Below, piece by piece: positions 10,176 through 25,814 of a stretch of 36,300 nt of DNA. This stretch comes from Clostridia bacterium (GTDB lineage: Bacteria > Bacillota > Clostridia > Christensenellales > Aristaeellaceae): assembly GCA_017545905.1 (NCBI GenBank), contig JAFWXL010000079.1, forward strand, positions 1 to 36,300, given 5' to 3'. A model generated the notes under the pieces. That model had not been told where the DNA came from and did not search any database. It saw only the letters and a program-made list of their open reading frames with translations. Numbering within the stretch: position 1 is the stretch's first letter; each line of letters begins with the position of its first letter. The translations under genes were made by a program, and so were the position numbers.

Positions 10176-10626
10176 TCATGCTATCAACTTCAAATACTTA
10201 TAAACCGTCGGCCTGCTCAGATCGCACACCCTTGCCAGTTCTGACAGGTTCATCTTGCCGGCAGAGAAAGCAGGATAGTGCTTGTAGAACACGGCAGGAA
10301 TGTCATCCTTCGTTGTGGGTCTGCGCCCGACCTTTACGCCCTTGCTCTTGGCGTTCTGCATTCCACTGCGCACTCTGGCTCTAATGATTGCCAACTCAAG
10401 TTCTGCAAAGACAGCGCTCATCTGGATGAACGCCTGACTCATGGGGTCTATCTGCCCGTTTCGGCAATCAACCGTGATACTGCCTACGATGATGAGTCTG
10501 AGCTTCTTGCTCTTGATGATCTCCACAACCTCACAGAGCTACTGTGTGCTTCTGGTCAAGCGGCTGACCTCAAGCGTGATGATCGTGTCGCCCTCAGTCG
10601 CCGCATCCAAGAGCATATTTGGATAT
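10176..10626 (-). pseudogene. Serine recombinase (resolvase/invertase) remnant
   Basis: On the minus strand, translation from about 10626 gives MLLDAATEGDTIITLEVSRLTRSTQ, then an in-frame TAG (10541-10539), then LCEVVEIIKSKKLRLIIVGSITVDC...AELELAIIRARVRSGMQNAKSKGVKVGRRP and a C-terminal helix-turn-helix (LSELARVCDLSRPTVYKYLKLI). This is the latter two-thirds of a small serine recombinase: end of the catalytic domain, E-helix and DNA-binding tail. The N-terminal part with the catalytic serine is missing, and the TAG breaks what is left. The break lies where the AT-rich ORF 10619-11110 begins, suggesting a deletion or recombination joint. Not functional. Confidence 0.85.
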
Positions 10627-11110
10627 CGCAATAAAAATAACCAAAGACTTTGATAAAGTAGCTCCTTATGAGAAATACAGCGGAGGTAATGAACTAGAAT
10701 TTTCCTTTATGATGCAAGACATTCGAAATGAAATCAATACAACCAATATTGAGGAAGAACTTTTCAGTTTAGTCGATATGTTTGGAGATTCCAACGACGC
10801 TTATATCAATTATTTGGTTGAAAATGCGAGAGATCTTTCTAGGGATCACGCAAAAGCGTTTGTCGGAGTATTAATCACCGAAGAAAGACACGGAAAAGAA
10901 GAAGCTCTTCGACGTTTCAACTTATATGCTGATTACTTAATAAGCACAACAGGTGAAAATTTTAGTCGCAAATTTCAAGTTTTAGGAATAGTTTCAGTCT
11001 TGTGTGGTCTACTTGCTGCAAATAAAATTCTCACTAATGATGAATCGGATGCTCTATCAAATCATTACTTTGCTCGCTTCTCAGATGATGTCCTTAAAAT
11101 AAAAAAATGA
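10619..11110 (+). CDS. Hypothetical protein, probably truncated at the 5' end
   Basis: A 163-residue open frame, AT-rich and codon-like, that I do not recognise. The only start near the 5' end is TTG 10619 with no ribosome site, and it falls on the joint with the recombinase remnant. Internal ATGs near 10709 are also poorly served. The protein is soluble and acidic up front (MQDIRNEINTTNIEEELFSLVDMFGDSNDAY), with one hydrophobic stretch near 125-140 (VLGIVSVLCGLLAANKIL). Most likely the surviving 3' part of a larger element gene. Confidence 0.45.
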   Translation: MDIAIKITKDFDKVAPYEKYSGGNELEFSFMMQDIRNEINTTNIEEELFSLVDMFGDSNDAYINYLVENARDLSRDHAKAFVGVLITEERHGKEEALRRFNLYADYLISTTGENFSRKFQVLGIVSVLCGLLAANKILTNDESDALSNHYFARFSDDVLKIKK

Positions 11111-11170: not shown

Positions 11171-11186
11171 GACCCCAATCAGGGTC
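11171..11186 (-). terminator. Weak hairpin near the right end of the element
   Basis: GACCC / GGGTC with a six-base loop; on the minus strand it is followed by TTTTCTTTT. Short stem, so uncertain. Confidence 0.35.
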
Positions 11187-11263
11187 AAATAAGAACCTTA
11201 CACAGCAAAGCCAAAGTTGGTTATTAGTTATTTGTACATATTAGAAAATCCTTGATTTTACTC

Positions 11264-11286
11264 GCCTCGAAGGTCTCCTTCGAGGC
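11264..11286. repeat. Perfect hairpin directly before the tRNA remnant
   Basis: GCCTCGAAGG / CCTTCGAGGC, a 10-base perfect stem with loop TCT, ending one base before the repeated TCTACGAATC. No T-run follows. Its position at the repeat edge suggests a role in, or a scar of, recombination. Confidence 0.6.
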
Positions 11287-11287
11287 T

Positions 11288-11485
11288 CTACGAATCAAAA
11301 AAGCCACAGGTTCGAATCCTGCCTTGTGCACCATGAACCGCTGACAAGCTTCGCGCTGTTGGCGGTTGTTTTTTCCTCAGCTCTGGCTGGGGATTTTTCT
11401 TTTTGGTTTCTCAATTATCATATATCATCAAACCCTGCGAAGACTTCTTATGATCAAGGAAGCGTTTCGCAAGGTTTTTTGTTAT
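11288..11485 (+). repeat. Right copy of the direct repeat with degenerate tRNA-Arg 3' half
   Basis: Begins CTACGAATCAAAA as in the anticodon loop of tRNA-Arg; keeps the T-arm (ACAGG-TTCGAAT-CCTG) and CCA, but the acceptor strand reads CCTTGTGC instead of TTGGGTGC. The three terminators follow in the same order. No 5' tRNA half precedes it, so it is not a tRNA gene. It marks the right end of the island. Confidence 0.85.
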
Positions 11486-11939
11486 GTGATCAGAATCCAA
11501 ATCCGGCAGTTTTGTTTTGTAGGAGGTCTTTTTTCCGTAAATCACTTCAAACAACACCAGCTTAATCCATGCAGCATATCGTTTTTTGAACCTTTGCTTT
11601 ACCACAAACCTTACCGCATGGCCCCCCCAAACGACGTCAATGCCTCTTGCAAAAAAGCCAAACTTAAACCACAGGTTTAGTGACGGCCGAATTCCGCTGT
11701 GCTATCATATAGCCATCGACAGGGACGAACAATCCCGCAGTCGAAGAAGTCGCAGCAGACGACAGGCTTCGGACAGACGACATCGTTTAACAGAATCGGC
11801 GCATACAGCAGAGAGATTCCCTCGGATCAAACGAGCAGAACTCAAATTCTGTGAGGTTGCATTCACCATCGACAAACCGTTCCTCAAGGGAGGTCAGGAT
11901 GGAGTTGGATCTCTAGCCAAACTGCACGAGATTTGACGT
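11486..11939. other. Gene-free stretch right of the island
   Basis: I find no convincing gene. Short open frames on either strand lack ribosome sites and protein-like composition. It holds one clear inverted repeat, TAAACC-ACA-GGTTTA (11665-11679), and a possible -10 (TATCAT near 11702). It may carry the promoter for the structured RNA and the DUF2828 gene downstream. Confidence 0.5.
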
Positions 11940-12179
11940 AATGATAATCAAATTCGCGTCGAGATCATTCTGGGTTTTCTGGTCGGATGTTCATTGGGCC
12001 CGCGCTCACAGACGGGTCGGAAGGGCGGCTTGCTTACGGACGGACAGAGGAAAACTGAAGACAATATGCCATGGAACGGAACGGGACATGGCTGCGTCGG
12101 GTAAGACCCAATTCGGCTTCCGATGAAAGCGAGGACGGCAAACCAAACGGAAACGGCTGCTGAGGAACCCTCAATCGGT

Positions 12180-12438
12180 CATTTTCCCGAAACGGGGGAA
12201 AATGGAAGGAAGAAAGAACCGAACAGGATGCAGGAGCGATAAAGGCTCTTCGCAGACAGCGGAAGCAGGCTGTACGGCGTGAAACTCGCGGGACAGCCTG
12301 CGCTTCTCTCTCTGGCATGAGGAGAGAGGCGCTGCTGGCTGCCGGCGGATATGCGAAAGGCATGATGGCGCATACCGCTGACCCTGATCCGCCGGCGTGC
12401 CCCGGACGAAAAACGGTTTGGACAGACGCCCATTTTCC
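12180..12438 (+). ncRNA. Candidate structured RNA upstream of the DUF2828 gene
   Basis: A dense array of helices without coding potential. Seen: 12232-12237 with 12245-12250; GCAGGCTGT (12265-12273) with ACAGCCTGC (12293-12301); 12302-12310 with 12322-12330 (TCTCTC/GAGAGA arm); GCCGGCGGAT (12341-12350) with ATCCGCCGGC (12387-12396), enclosing ATGCG (12351-12355) with CGCAT (12369-12373), leaving a 13-base bulge. GGAAAATGG (12197-12205) can close the whole domain with CCATTTTCC (12430-12438), or form a local hairpin with CATTTTCCC (12180-12188). It ends about 50 bases before the start of a Ro60-like vWA gene. It could be a regulatory leader or a separate small RNA; no known class was recognised. 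Confidence 0.45.
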
Positions 12439-12486
12439 GCAGCGGCTGAGATGCCGCCAGCATGAAAGAAAGGAGAAAAACAGCAT

Positions 12487-13983
12487 ATGAGCTTTATTGA
12501 TCAGATGAAGACTGAATTCAATCTGACTTCGACGCTCAACGGCGCAGTGACGCATGCCACCTCCGGCGACGCCTGTCTGGATCTGTTTGCCGTGGCCGGC
12601 GGTATGCGATACCGCAAAAAGCAGGATCAGATCCGCCTGTTTGACAGAGCCTATATCGAGAATCCCGAGCTGGCCATGAAGCTGCTGTTCCATCTGCGGG
12701 ATATCCGCGGCGGCATGGGCGAAAGGACGCTCTTTCGCACGCTGCTTCGGCACGTGGCCAGCGTGTGGCCCGAATCCGCCAGGAAGAACGTGCGCTACAT
12801 CGCTAAATACGGCCGATGGGACGACGTGCTCTGCCTGATGGATACGCCTGCGCAGGAAGAAGCCATCCGGGTCATCCGCGATCAGCTGGACAAGGATATG
12901 GAAAGCCTTCGCCGCCGCGAAGCCGGCGAAAAGGACGCGCCCATTTCCCTGCTGGCCAAGTGGCTGCCCTCGATCAACACCTCCAGCCGGAAGACGCGCG
13001 CTCAGGCACAGAAGCTGGTATCTGCGCTGGGCATGGAAGCAAAGCCCTATCGCCAGATGCTTTCCGCGCTGCGCGCCCATATCGCCCTGACCGAGCGATA
13101 CCTGACGAAGAAGCAGGCCGGAAAGATCAGCTACGAGGCGGTGCCCGCCGGTGCGATGCTCAAGTACCGCGCCGCGTTCAACCGTCAGGACGGCGGACGT
13201 TACAGGCGGTATCTCAAAGACGTCTTGCAGAGCAAAACGAAGATGCATGCTGACACCCTGTTCCCCTACGAAATCCTGCGCCCCTACTTCAAGGGCTGGT
13301 CCTGGTCTCCCGAGAACATCCCGGGTGAAAAGACGCTGGAAGCCCTGTGGGCAAGCATGAGCTGCGAAATCGGCAGCCAGAACGCGCTCAGCGTGATTGA
13401 CACCTCCGGCTCCATGTATTGCGGCAATGGGATCAAACCTGCGCTGATTTCTCAGGCCATGGGACTTTACTGCGCAGAGCGGTGCAAGGGGCCATTCCAC
13501 AACCTGTTCATCACCTTCAGTTCCTGGCCCACGCTGATGGAGATCAAGGGCAAAACCCTTGCCAAAAAGCTGCGCTATCTGAGCACAGCGCCGTGGGGTG
13601 GCAGCACGGATCTAGAGAAGGTATTTGACCTGATTCTGCAGACCGCTGTCAAGGCCAATGCCGCGCAGGACGAGATGCCGCAGGTGCTCTACATCTTCTC
13701 GGATATGGAGTTCAATTGTGCCATACAAAGGCCGGATGAAACCATCTACGAGAATGCACGCCTCAGTTTTGAGCGCGCAGGCTATCAGCTGCCCGCCGTC
13801 GTGTTCCACAATGTGAACAGCTGGCAGATGCAGACGCCGGTGCAGGCCCACACAAAGGGTGCAGCCCTGACCAGCGGCGCAAGCGTCCAATCGCTGAAGG
13901 AGCCGTTTGACGGCAACATTACGCCGATGAGCCACATGCTTCGGGTCCTGAACGGGAAGCGCTACGAGGTCATTCATGCCTAG
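12487..13983 (+). CDS. DUF2828 / TROVE-like protein with von Willebrand A domain
   Basis: A 498-residue cytoplasmic protein. Residues 1-290 are helical and repeat-like (FDRAYIENPELAMKLLFHLRDIRGGMGER, then KNVRYIAKYGRWDDVLCL), as in DUF2828 and the HEAT-like ring of Ro60/TROVE proteins. Residues 300-480 form a von Willebrand A domain with a complete metal site: DTSGS (D305, S307, S309), T374 (GGSTDL) and D406 (FSDMEF). Ro60 orthologues bind Y RNAs and misfolded RNA; whether DUF2828 proteins bind RNA is not known to me. AGGAG lies 11 bases before ATG 12487, and a long structured leader precedes it. No RtcB or other RNA-repair gene is adjacent. Confidence 0.85.
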   Translation: MSFIDQMKTEFNLTSTLNGAVTHATSGDACLDLFAVAGGMRYRKKQDQIRLFDRAYIENPELAMKLLFHLRDIRGGMGERTLFRTLLRHVASVWPESARKNVRYIAKYGRWDDVLCLMDTPAQEEAIRVIRDQLDKDMESLRRREAGEKDAPISLLAKWLPSINTSSRKTRAQAQKLVSALGMEAKPYRQMLSALRAHIALTERYLTKKQAGKISYEAVPAGAMLKYRAAFNRQDGGRYRRYLKDVLQSKTKMHADTLFPYEILRPYFKGWSWSPENIPGEKTLEALWASMSCEIGSQNALSVIDTSGSMYCGNGIKPALISQAMGLYCAERCKGPFHNLFITFSSWPTLMEIKGKTLAKKLRYLSTAPWGGSTDLEKVFDLILQTAVKANAAQDEMPQVLYIFSDMEFNCAIQRPDETIYENARLSFERAGYQLPAVVFHNVNSWQMQTPVQAHTKGAALTSGASVQSLKEPFDGNITPMSHMLRVLNGKRYEVIHA

Positions 13984-14000
13984 TTACCAACTGAATAGCA

Positions 14001-14351
14001 TTAAGACCGACCATTCAGTCTTCCGCTGGTAACGGAAGCTTTTTTTTTGCAAAAAATTGTCCCCCAAAAAAGAAAAAGGCCGCTGCAAGCCGCCAAAAAA
14101 TACGAGACCTCCCGGTCCTCATAGACCAGAAGGTCTTCCATCGGCACCCTCAGCAGATGCGAGAGCGCCAGCAGATTGTCTACCGACGGCAGACAATCTC
14201 CATGCTGCCATTTATAGACAGCCTGCGGGTATTCAAACCCGAAATAGGTCTGAACATCCCGCACAGACAGCCCGGCTGCCTTTCGGCGCCGCTCGATCGA
14301 GCGGCCGGTAGCCGCCAGATCAATCACCGGGAACGCAATACACTTGCTCAT
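14001..14351 (-). CDS. Small XRE-type helix-turn-helix protein
   Basis: A 116-residue protein starting at ATG 14351 behind GAGGAGG. The helix-turn-helix spans about 13-76 (ATGRSIERRRKAAGLSVRDVQ...YPQAVYKWQHGDCLPSVDNLLALSHLLRVPMEDLLV). Relatives I recall end soon after this segment, at about 75-80 residues. Here the frame continues for 36 residues (from about 81) through the terminator hairpin of the opposing gene, with an unusual hydrophobic and then basic tail. The tail may be real, or a lost stop codon or frameshift may have extended it. Target genes unknown. Confidence 0.8.
   Translation of the reverse strand: MSKCIAFPVIDLAATGRSIERRRKAAGLSVRDVQTYFGFEYPQAVYKWQHGDCLPSVDNLLALSHLLRVPMEDLLVYEDREVSYFLAACSGLFLFWGTIFCKKKASVTSGRLNGRS
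14020..14048 (+). terminator. Terminator of the DUF2828 gene
   Basis: Stem CTTCCG / CGGAAG with a seven-base loop, then CTTTTTTTT. It lies inside the 3' end of the opposing XRE open frame. Confidence 0.85.
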
Positions 14352-14462
14352 AAAAAACGCCTCCTCACAAACGAAACCAAGAGTCAGTCGGTCTTCATGG
14401 GCTTTCACTCAGCAAGAATCCTATATTGGCAGAGTATTCTGCAATTCCCTTTCCCTCTGCAC

Positions 14463-23636: not shown

Positions 23637-24617
23637 TCAGAACAGACCGCTTTCCGGATCAATCTTTTTGATAACGATATTCGAGATGATCAGCAGGATA
23701 CAGCCAAACACGCTCTGCATCAGCGCGACAGCAGAGGAATAATTGTAATTATTGCTCTGAATCAGCGCCTTGTGTACATACACGTCCAGCGTCTGCGTCA
23801 CATTGATGAGCGAGTTGGAATCGCGCGTGACCTGGAAAAACAGGCCGAAGTCCGTGGCAAAGATATTGCCCACGTTCATGATGAACATGATGGAGATCAC
23901 CGGACGCAGGAGCGGAATAGTGATGCCCCACGTCTGCTGCCATTTGCTTGCGCCGTCGATCACGGCGCTTTCATACAGGCTCTGGTCGATACCGGTGATG
24001 GTGGCCATGTATACGACCATGGAATAGCCGAAGGTTTTCCACGTGTTGATGAATACCAGCAGATACGGCCACGGCTTGGGATCCTGATACCACAGGATGG
24101 GATTGCCGCCCAGGGCGACGATCATCGAGTTGACAAGGCCCTTGTCCGTAGACAGAAATGCATAGACAAAGTAGCTGATGACGACCCATGACAGGAAATG
24201 CGGCAGGAATACGGCGGTCTGGCAGACCTTGGCCACCCTGCGCGAATGAAGCTGGGTGATCATGATAGCCAGCGCAACCGGCAGCGTGACGCCGATGAGC
24301 AGGAATACGGTATTGTAGCCGAGGGTATTGCGGAAAATATTGGCAATATCCGGCGAGCGGAACAGGAACTCAAAGTTCTTCATGCCCACCCATTTGCTCG
24401 AAACAAACAGGCTGTAGAGAAAACCCTTGCCGGGCTTGTATTTGTAATTCTTGAATGCAAAGACGATGCCGAACATCGGCACATAGCAAAACGCAATCAG
24501 CCATGCAATCGTAGGCAGTGACAGTATCGTGAGCTCCAGATCGTCCCATGTAAAGCGCTTGCGCTTATTCCTGACGACATGCCCGCCGTCCCTGACAGCC
24601 AGGTTGTCCTTCTTCAT
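23637..24617 (-). CDS. Sugar ABC transporter permease, LplB/YteP type
   Basis: A 326-residue integral membrane protein, partner of the next permease. First membrane helix about 29-50 (LTILSLPTIAWLIAFCYVPMFGIVFAF region), then the family's KNYKYKPG and WVGMKNFEFLF segments. The EAA loop is ESAVIDGASKWQQTWGITIPLLRP. Start ATG 24617 behind a G-rich site; a longer frame upstream crosses the promoter. First gene of the minus-strand operon. Confidence 0.93.
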   Translation of the reverse strand: MKKDNLAVRDGGHVVRNKRKRFTWDDLELTILSLPTIAWLIAFCYVPMFGIVFAFKNYKYKPGKGFLYSLFVSSKWVGMKNFEFLFRSPDIANIFRNTLGYNTVFLLIGVTLPVALAIMITQLHSRRVAKVCQTAVFLPHFLSWVVISYFVYAFLSTDKGLVNSMIVALGGNPILWYQDPKPWPYLLVFINTWKTFGYSMVVYMATITGIDQSLYESAVIDGASKWQQTWGITIPLLRPVISIMFIMNVGNIFATDFGLFFQVTRDSNSLINVTQTLDVYVHKALIQSNNYNYSSAVALMQSVFGCILLIISNIVIKKIDPESGLF

Positions 24618-24676
24618 CCGCCGCGCCCCCTTCTGAGCAAAATGCACATACAGCCCGATCACTATATGTACAATTC

Positions 24677-24705
24677 AGTATAGCACAGTCCTGATTCAAG
24701 AACAA
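24677..24705 (-). promoter_or_regulatory. Promoter of the LplB operon
   Basis: Minus strand: TTGTTC (24700-24705), 17-base spacer, TATACT (24677-24682). The gap to the divergent kinase operon also contains GAAG-TATACG-CTTC (24747-24760), a possible operator shared by both. Confidence 0.6.
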
Positions 24706-24848
24706 GTATTTTTCAACCCTTTTTATAAATGCATTTTTACCAGCAGGAAGTATACGCTTCATGTCGAATTAGTAATCAGTTATTATGCCCTGACGGGGAT
24801 ACTTCCCCGCAGCCATGGTTATTGCGCACAGGTGAGGAGGCAAAGCAT

Positions 24849-25814
24849 ATGAAATACGATCTGCTGATCGGCATAGACGGCGGCGGAACGCATTCCACGG
24901 CTGCCGCCGCATGGCCGGATGGCCGCATCGCCGCTGTCGCTTATGGCGGCGGCCTGAATTATCATCACGCCGGCATAGAAACGGTCCGCCTGCGCATGGA
25001 GGATATGGTTGCGCAGCTGTGCGAAAAGGCGGGCGCAGGGCGTCCGCTTGTCTGCGTGGGCATGTCTGCGCTGGACGCCCCTGCGGACGAAGCCACGCTC
25101 GCCCGGTTCACTGCCGGCCGCTTTGAATCCGGTCAGCTCGACCTTCAGTCCGACGCATACGCCGCGCTGATGGGCTTCACCTGCGGCGAGCCCGGCATGA
25201 TCGTCATCTGCGGCACAGGTTCCATGCTCCTTCTTCTGGATGAACAAGGCCGTCAGCACGTCAGCGGCGGCTGGGGCTATCTGCTTGCCGACGCGGGCAG
25301 CAGCTATACCCTCGCGCGCGAAGCGCTGCTTGCCGTGATCGACGAATACGAGGAAATGGGCGAAAAAACCGTGCTGACCAGGCATGCGCTCGATTATTTC
25401 GGCGTCAGCACGCCGCGCATGATCATCGACAAGGTATACGCGCCCGACTTTACGCCGGACAGGCTGGCCGGATTCGCGCGTCACGTACTGAAGGAAGCAG
25501 AAAGCGGCGAACGCGTCGCATGCTCCATCCTGCAGCGTACCATGCCCCGGCTGGCCGCGCAGGCTGCACAGCTGATGAAAAAATCGCCTTCTGCCCATCG
25601 GGTCGGTCTTTACGGCGGCGTGTTCATGCATAGTGCGGCAGCGCGCGCTTGCTTTACCGATACGCTGCGCCGGCTCGCGCCCAAGGCGCAGATCTGTCCG
25701 CTTGACTATCCGCCGGAGCTGGGCGCCATCATTCACCTGATGCGCAGAGAAGACATTCTGAGCGAAAGCGCCCTGCACAACCTCAAAACCACTTACAAGG
25801 AGGTTCATCCATGA
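24849..25814 (+). CDS. N-acetylglucosamine kinase-like protein (BadF/BadG/BcrA/BcrD ATPase family)
   Basis: A 321-residue cytoplasmic ATPase of the actin/hexokinase fold. Phosphate-binding loop 1 is LIGIDGGGTHSTAA (6-19); phosphate 2 region IVICGTGSMLLL (about 117-128), then SGGWGYLLADAGSSYTLAREAL, as in N-acetylglucosamine kinase of this family; adenosine region VGLYGGVF. ATG 24849 is preceded by GAGGAGG with 8-base spacing. It would phosphorylate GlcNAc or a related amino sugar released by the GH20 enzyme. Its stop overlaps the SIS gene (ATGA). Confidence 0.85.
   Translation: MKYDLLIGIDGGGTHSTAAAAWPDGRIAAVAYGGGLNYHHAGIETVRLRMEDMVAQLCEKAGAGRPLVCVGMSALDAPADEATLARFTAGRFESGQLDLQSDAYAALMGFTCGEPGMIVICGTGSMLLLLDEQGRQHVSGGWGYLLADAGSSYTLAREALLAVIDEYEEMGEKTVLTRHALDYFGVSTPRMIIDKVYAPDFTPDRLAGFARHVLKEAESGERVACSILQRTMPRLAAQAAQLMKKSPSAHRVGLYGGVFMHSAAARACFTDTLRRLAPKAQICPLDYPPELGAIIHLMRREDILSESALHNLKTTYKEVHP

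Follow-up and report, generated by a model that had tools for sequence, protein, structure and literature searches.

Ro60/Rsr docks on Y RNA, and the role of Ro60 and Y RNAs in bacteria is an open question, few systems having been studied. GOLLD and ROOL, in turn, are large ornate RNAs of bacteria or phages found near tRNA genes. The closest described gene arrangement is the operon rsr-yrlBA-rtcBA, in which, according to the excerpted account, the Rsr and Y RNA genes are joined by RtcB (PMC7790460). For phages, the excerpt of the 2025 paper on Listeria phage CKA15 that deals with CKA15_055 suggests that this is an Rsr protein, with Rsr of D. radiodurans as its best HHpred match, and reports it from purified particles (PMC12282133). 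Three strongly transcribed, unannotated regions lie within 2 kb of its gene, and the authors propose that they may be Y RNAs (PMC12282133).

Here we describe a DUF2828 gene preceded by two conserved structured RNAs, RNA A and RNA B, in a stretch of 36,300 nt (the window) from contig JAFWXL010000079.1 of a Clostridia bacterium of the family Aristaeellaceae. As in rsr-yrlBA-rtcBA, a vWA-containing protein of RNA-binding type has dedicated RNAs beside its gene, several RNAs of the relatives contain tRNA-like modules, and RtcB occurs near small-RNA loci (compared with the excerpted account of PMC7790460). Unlike Ro60/Rsr systems, DUF2828 gives no TROVE match and no Rfam model recognizes the RNAs; RNA A is several times the size of a Y RNA, RtcB was not matched in the window's genome, and regulators at DUF2828 loci are of the WYL or XRE type, whereas the excerpt names RtcR for the known operon. 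Drawing on the parallel between that operon (PMC7790460, as excerpted) and a vWA protein with dedicated RNAs, tRNA-like modules and RtcB in relatives, we consider it likely, at a probability of about 0.68, that a Ro-type ribonucleoprotein system is represented in the window by one member; the Y-RNA-like partner would be RNA A, with RNA B probably a leader.

CKA15_055 (23695-25215) proved to be a DUF2828 homologue (37.6% identity). The preliminary description had taken the pairing of such a protein with an RNA to be undescribed, which does not wholly hold, as the CKA15 excerpt suggests Rsr together with Y RNAs; the same excerpt mentions neither a conserved structure or motif nor a counterpart in bacteria (PMC12282133). 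Apart from this suggestion, the literature searched on Ro and Y RNA, ornate RNAs, YrlA, RtcB/WYL and Ro-like phage proteins does not describe these RNAs, and papers that name DUF2828 appear to concern plants.

The DUF2828 protein

The gene (12487-13983, forward strand) encodes a DUF2828/DUF7788 protein of 498 aa (Pfam E 1.1e-34 and 1.7e-42). A vWA domain with a MIDAS motif, a feature of Ro60/TROVE proteins, is present as DTSGSM, and VWA_2 is matched by 17 of 26 homologues (best E 2.6e-5). The likeness to Ro60/TROVE that had been proposed for this gene is echoed by phage DUF2828 homologues annotated as Ro-like, but the window protein itself has no TROVE match: Pfam searches at E up to 1 found TROVE (PF05731) neither in it nor in 26 homologues, and a profile search of the PDB gave no Ro60 match. 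With two TROVE proteins, hhalign aligned 229 columns of DUF2828, among them the vWA domain and some of the helical region, at E 3.7e-4 and a weak probability of 36%, compared with 0.2-0.3% for RtcB and WYL controls; the global mode returned nothing (0.2%).

On the 3' side of the gene, a hairpin with a T run that resembles an intrinsic terminator can be read directly (14020-14049, forward strand). An XRE-type helix-turn-helix regulator is encoded on the reverse strand (14004-14408; HTH_3 at E 4.6e-4, below Pfam's cut-off) and is a candidate reader of the operator described below.

RNA B, a conserved structure before the ribosome-binding site

Dense structured RNA had been noted just 5' of the DUF2828 gene, and both shuffling and covariation confirm it. 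The forward strand of 12180-12486 folds at -129 kcal/mol, against -102.6 +/- 5.0 kcal/mol for 100 dinucleotide shuffles (z -5.3, none as good), with weaker folding of the opposite strand (z -3.7). The structure is also larger than noted: since the conserved structured region starts about 465 nt further 5' (promoter at 11664, RNA A from about 11715), 12180-12486 is only its 3' part.

A protein search of genome contigs yielded 36 loci, and in the alignment of their upstream sequences the conserved block ends just before the ribosome-binding site (AAAGGAG, 12469-12475, forward strand). RNA B was found by motif search at 32 places in 29 sequences, 31 of which were aligned (alignment A1). RNAalifold proposes 49 pairs, in 34 of which both sides have changed, a number not reached in any of 500 shuffles; 92.5% of the alignment cells are paired, against 44-49% for slid structures. 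The helices thus keep compensatory changes while the protein is conserved, an outcome in favour of the preliminary description.

RNA B extends on the forward strand from UUUUCCCGAAACGGGG to a hairpin before the ribosome-binding site (12182-12461). Its closing helix (12197-12205 with 12430-12438) stacks between a 5' hairpin and this 3' hairpin; all nine of its pairs are formed in the window, and eight of the nine are changed on both sides in relatives. Two further helices, 12232-12237 with 12245-12250 and 12252-12255 with 12339-12342, are conserved in relatives. The 3' hairpin (12439-12461; 99.6% of cells paired) has the loop UGAGAU in the window and UGAAAU in the consensus (UGARAU). When the window is folded as a single sequence, the GGAAAATG strand can pair with 12180-12187 instead, an alternative that is window-specific as far as the alignment shows. 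The same applies to a bulged helix that had been compared to Y RNAs. It is present in the letters, where 12341-12355 (GCCGGCGGATATGCG) pairs with CGCAT (12369-12373) and ATCCGCCGGC (12387-12396) and the 13 bases 12374-12386 bulge out, but it is not conserved; by eye, the alignment of 31 relatives has other hairpins there, and the bulge was rejected as a conserved Y-RNA-like feature.

RNA B is also found 5' of an unrelated zinc-ribbon gene and of a second DUF2828 paralogue (L036, L002). With up to one mismatch, its 3' hairpin has 28 matches in 23 of 308 family genomes, compared with 1 for the reversed pattern; 13 of the 16 exact matches lie directly 5' of a DUF2828 match, and two precede the zinc-ribbon gene. 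Such a fixed position before the start codon, in front of more than one kind of gene, is as expected of a cis-acting leader. Because its 3' end lies about 25 nt before start codons and it also precedes the zinc-ribbon gene, RNA B is more likely the leader of the DUF2828 gene than a Y-RNA-like partner.

RNA A and its dedicated promoter

The all-against-all comparison of upstream sequences revealed a palindrome, TTAAACCACAGGTTTAATGACA, followed by an extended -10 and then about 450 conserved nucleotides. In the window, the palindromic operator TTAAACCACAGGTTTA with a -35-like TGACG occupies 11664-11685 and aligns in relatives, and the extended -10 TGTGCTATCAT (11698-11708), seen directly and likewise conserved, follows 17 nt after the -35, both on the forward strand. 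The operator is conserved 5' of RNA A, of a small basic ORF and, in L008 and L011, of RNA B, and this is its only match at three or fewer mismatches in the window's genome. At L029, L036, L067 and L107 the palindromic operator is absent, and an alternative element, TTCGCANCTTTTTTTCC, is seen about 40 nt 5' of a -10-like box.

RNA A spans about 11715-12165 of the forward strand (alignment A2, 32 copies), its probable ends being set by the promoter and the last conserved pairing. The loop of its first hairpin (11753-11758) pairs with the 3' end (12157-12162) in a terminal pseudoknot that covaries in the alignment. Long-range helices join 11848-11853 with 12007-12012 (P5) and 11877-11883 with 12078-12084 (P6, with 6/6 scored pairs formed); in a further helix, P7, three of five pairs are formed in the window. 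The pseudoknot, P6 and P7 are found by RNAalifold unaided. With four more helices, some of them picked by eye on the alignment that scored them, 21 of 40 pairs are changed on both sides and 90.3% of cells are paired, compared with 28-42% for slid structures; no shuffle out of 500 has as many doubly changed pairs and cells as the alignment. Relatedness alone can lift sequences above shuffles, and the helices were drawn from the scoring alignment; most weight therefore falls on the slid control and on the helices found automatically.

Within RNA A lies a docking-type element, whose 5' side (11796-11810) consists of the stem TCGGCGC followed by ATACAGCA and whose 3' side, GCGTCGA (11956-11962), forms 7 bp with 11796-11802, one of them G-T; the same element occurs in the arrays of distant relatives. 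A tRNA search of the window found none in RNA A or RNA B and no tRNA-like module. RNA A stands without RNA B at L016, L017, L022 and L023. At L003, L004, L005 and L033 it is repeated in two or three tandem copies with a promoter each, and three or four such promoters are present, each 5' of an RNA A unit or of the small basic ORF.

Several features accompany RNA A in relatives. A long near-perfect hairpin that lacks a T run follows an RNA A unit directly before the next promoter (L003, 1955-2020), and similar hairpins follow other units. Tandem repeats 3' of RNA A hold copies of the pseudoknot loop sequence GGCAGAGAAC in L019 (2560-2640). The small basic ORF (about 60-80 aa, K/R-rich, with a VW..SPxT motif and no Pfam match) is found behind the same operator or directly 3' of DUF2828, for example at L003 472-717 and L001 1997-2203.

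A docking-type element shared with arrays of small RNAs

The element can be written AAAG-stem-NNCAGCAA-loop-stem'-CUUG and was first spotted 5' of distant DUF2828 genes of the family (42-47% identity). A strict scan of these distant loci found 32 elements in 13 of 15, with none antisense, none in 30 shuffle sets and none in the 44.3 kb that cover the genes and their downstream flanks. As the pattern had been drawn from those 15 loci, it was tested on others, namely 31 further regions of which six repeat training loci, leaving 25 new ones that include other families of the order (L093, L096-L101). Elements were present in 16 of the 25 fresh loci (31 in all, with none antisense in 109.8 kb) and in five of six phylum-level loci. 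A gapped pattern gave 27 matches in 18 of the 308 family genomes, and the reversed pattern none; of these 18 genomes, 17 belong to the 45 that have DUF2828. Matches away from a DUF2828 gene occur in genomes G168, G197 and G292, and in G168, where DUF2828 was not found, four elements lie between WYL genes and RtcB (L186, 1661-2082).

These small RNAs (RNA C) are varied in content and position. ARAGORN and the Rfam tRNA model recognize tRNA-like folds inside several elements, other elements being plain hairpins, and at L107 tRNA genes and elements alternate. Some small RNAs lie 1-2.5 kb from the gene, and at L108, L109 and L213 they are found 3' of it as well. RNA A carries the element as AGGCGC-AYACAGCA with GCGUCU-G, in the window as TCGGCGC with GCGTCGA, and RNA A of L030 has exactly the small-RNA form. 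The strict scan of the window found no small-RNA element, and a relaxed scan of 15 loci that lack strict matches gained little. By computation, RNAs A, B and C are conserved and covarying, with a shared element and linkage to the gene. The loci point to an undescribed family of protein-RNA machines, with small RNAs bearing what looks like the same docking motif.

Comparison with described RNAs set these molecules apart. In the Rfam scan of the window, neither RNA A nor RNA B matched any model, Y RNA, ROOL and GOLLD included, and the GOLLD and ROOL models matched none of RNAs A, B and C. At gathering score, YrlA (RF02553) was found neither in the window nor in seven related loci; of two sub-threshold matches (L043, L066), the one in L066 was rejected, as it spans two neighbouring tRNA genes. 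The docking-type element does have a conserved helix, with CAGCAA along one strand and CUUG at its end, but in the YrlA consensus the single-stranded motifs lie within the end stem and not at its outer end. As neither the YrlA model nor TROVE is matched, we do not claim membership of the Y RNA or TROVE family.

Neighbouring genes

Distinct DUF2828 genes with 400 nt or more of upstream sequence, 87 in number, were sorted by crude motif tests over a distance of up to 1 kb, which assigned 26 to loci with both A and B, 31 to small RNAs, eight to A, five to B and 17 to none of the motifs, the last group containing L013, a known miss. Three loci labelled A (L061, L120, L128) are better read as small-RNA loci, because strict small RNAs are present and identity is 40-45%. 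At small-RNA loci two WYL-type genes often lie upstream and RtcB adjoins; RtcB was counted at 13 of the 31 and WYL at 12 of the 31, which are lower bounds because the flanks are short. The RtcB gene of an rsr-yrl-rtcBA-type RNA repair operon adjoins 13/31 small-RNA relatives and is missing from the window, as from all 26 loci with both A and B within their short flanks (0/26), and none was found in the window's genome (78% complete). Within the flanks covered, loci with both A and B have an XRE gene in 17 of 26 cases and the small basic ORF in nine of 26.

Viruses, phages and plasmids

A search of viral sequences by pattern alone gave at least 120 stretches, of which 80 matches were listed. 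Among the 80 listed viral loci, stems reach 7 bp or more in 83 of 87 elements, and at three pattern-free stem positions pairing is seen in 82-84 of the 85 unique listed viral elements, where 66-71 would be expected, a level that none of 1000 shuffles reached. The 76 listed viral loci concerned include 28 with DUF2828 by profile search, 55 with at least one tRNA and 42 with at least three; a single-sequence search of the same 76 found no RtcB.

By comparison with those 28 of 76 viral loci, DUF2828 homologues occur in 680 of 50,697 phage records, and phage DUF2828 genes are located at tRNA arrays. Among the 60 phage homologues listed, most are named hypothetical or RNA-binding protein and some 'Ro-like RNA binding protein'. 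Elements adjoin DUF2828 in a plasmid of Subdoligranulum variabile (OY725878.1), a plasmid of Bacillus amyloliquefaciens (NZ_CP076118.1) and Staphylococcus phage S-CoN_Ph12. No element lies on the gene's strand in Mycobacterium phage LeBron, Listeria phage LP-124, Escherichia phage REP12 or a Jeotgalibacillus plasmid (L211). LeBron gp53, a 'Ro-like RNA binding protein' by record annotation only, is a full-length homologue (37% identity to the window protein) with no element nearby, and LP-124, in which no strict element was found, is related to CKA15. Close relatives in viral contigs were limited to two loci (L072, L073), both without elements. One viral stretch with a small-RNA element and DUF2828 also contains a GOLLD RNA (L249, 5821-6266).

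A proposed mechanism and its alternatives

The preliminary description had envisaged either a dedicated RNA partner or an RNA leader for the DUF2828 protein. DUF2828 genes do have dedicated structured RNAs near them, from the family through the order to the phylum and in some phages, but RNA B, the RNA it pointed to, fits the leader better, and the better candidate for a partner is RNA A, which lies upstream of 12180-12486. In the mechanism we propose, the XRE-type regulator probably controls the dedicated promoter, from which RNA A would be transcribed as about 450 nt with its ends joined by the pseudoknot, displaying a short helix flanked by AYACAGCA. By analogy with Ro60/Rsr on Y RNA, that helix is the probable docking site of the DUF2828 protein, which has a helical part and a vWA domain with MIDAS-like motif. 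Immediately 5' of the ribosome-binding site, RNA B would probably act in cis as a leader that tunes protein synthesis, perhaps by binding the protein. In related loci, small-RNA arrays that share the element take the place of RNA A, and several of the small RNAs enclose tRNA-like folds; because such arrays often lie beside RtcB and WYL-domain genes, the system would likely handle or repair tRNA and other RNAs that have been damaged.

This scheme competes with simpler ones. RNA A and RNA B may together form one long 5' leader, whether riboswitch, attenuator or autoregulatory, that controls the DUF2828 gene in cis while nothing acts in trans. The two do share a strand and lie upstream of the gene; RNA B, which also precedes the zinc-ribbon gene, extends to the ribosome-binding site, and most exact matches of its 3' hairpin in the 308 genomes (13/16) directly precede a DUF2828 match. 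A single leader does not account for tandem copies of RNA A that have their own promoters (L003, L004, L005, L033), nor for small RNAs that lie 3' of the gene (L108, L109, L213), 1-2.5 kb away or in a genome without it (L186), which makes this explanation unlikely. That G+C-rich sequence merely folds strongly by chance, or that the stretch is coding, might be suggested by its composition and by the ORFs of 94 aa and 61 aa that cross it; covariation with slid controls refutes this, the shuffles also speak against it and Pfam finds nothing in the 94-aa antisense ORF, so that we give it next to no weight.

The RNAs could also be tRNA-like decoys or substitutes directed against tRNA-cutting defence enzymes and carried or protected by DUF2828, the resemblance to Ro and Y RNA then being functional convergence without quality control. 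The tRNA-like folds in several elements, their alternation with tRNA genes at L107, the phage genes at tRNA arrays and the CKA15 homologue in purified particles (PMC12282133, as excerpted) would suit such a role. RNA A has no tRNA match, however, and among the viral elements listed (14 of 85) most are short AU-rich hairpins without a tRNA-like part; we regard decoys as quite improbable. Returning to the Ro-type system, in which RNA A would be the partner and RNA B the leader, a broader proposal seems to us slightly better than an even bet: that DUF2828 is a second, widespread Ro-type superfamily in bacteria and phages, in which the gene clusters come with RNAs of their own, recognizable by a single docking code (stem, CAGCA, CUUG). 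RNA A, RNA B and the small RNAs would then be three undescribed RNA classes, and RNA A an ornate derivative, a pseudoknotted scaffold of about 450 nt grown around the docking helix. If so, the bacterial role of Ro60 and Y RNAs would become testable in many hosts; the code would predict the RNAs bound, the arrays would offer natural variants, and the linkage to RtcB and tRNA would suggest the substrate. A function could likewise be proposed for the proteins in those 680 of 50,697 phage records and for unannotated stretches in phage tRNA arrays.

Other features of the window

Upstream of the operator, the window contains a tRNA 3' fragment with a T-arm and acceptor-like part (GGTTCGAATCCTGCC..GCACCA, 11303-11332), about 100 nt after CACAGCAA. 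The strict scan finds nothing in 11185-11345, which includes both, that would mark a degenerate small RNA; the fragment is possibly the scar of an attachment site or a decayed small RNA. Further upstream, on the minus strand, an ORF at 10176-10650 combines the end of a resolvase N-terminal domain with a helix-turn-helix, and resolvase-like sequence continues in another frame; it looks like a decayed recombinase.
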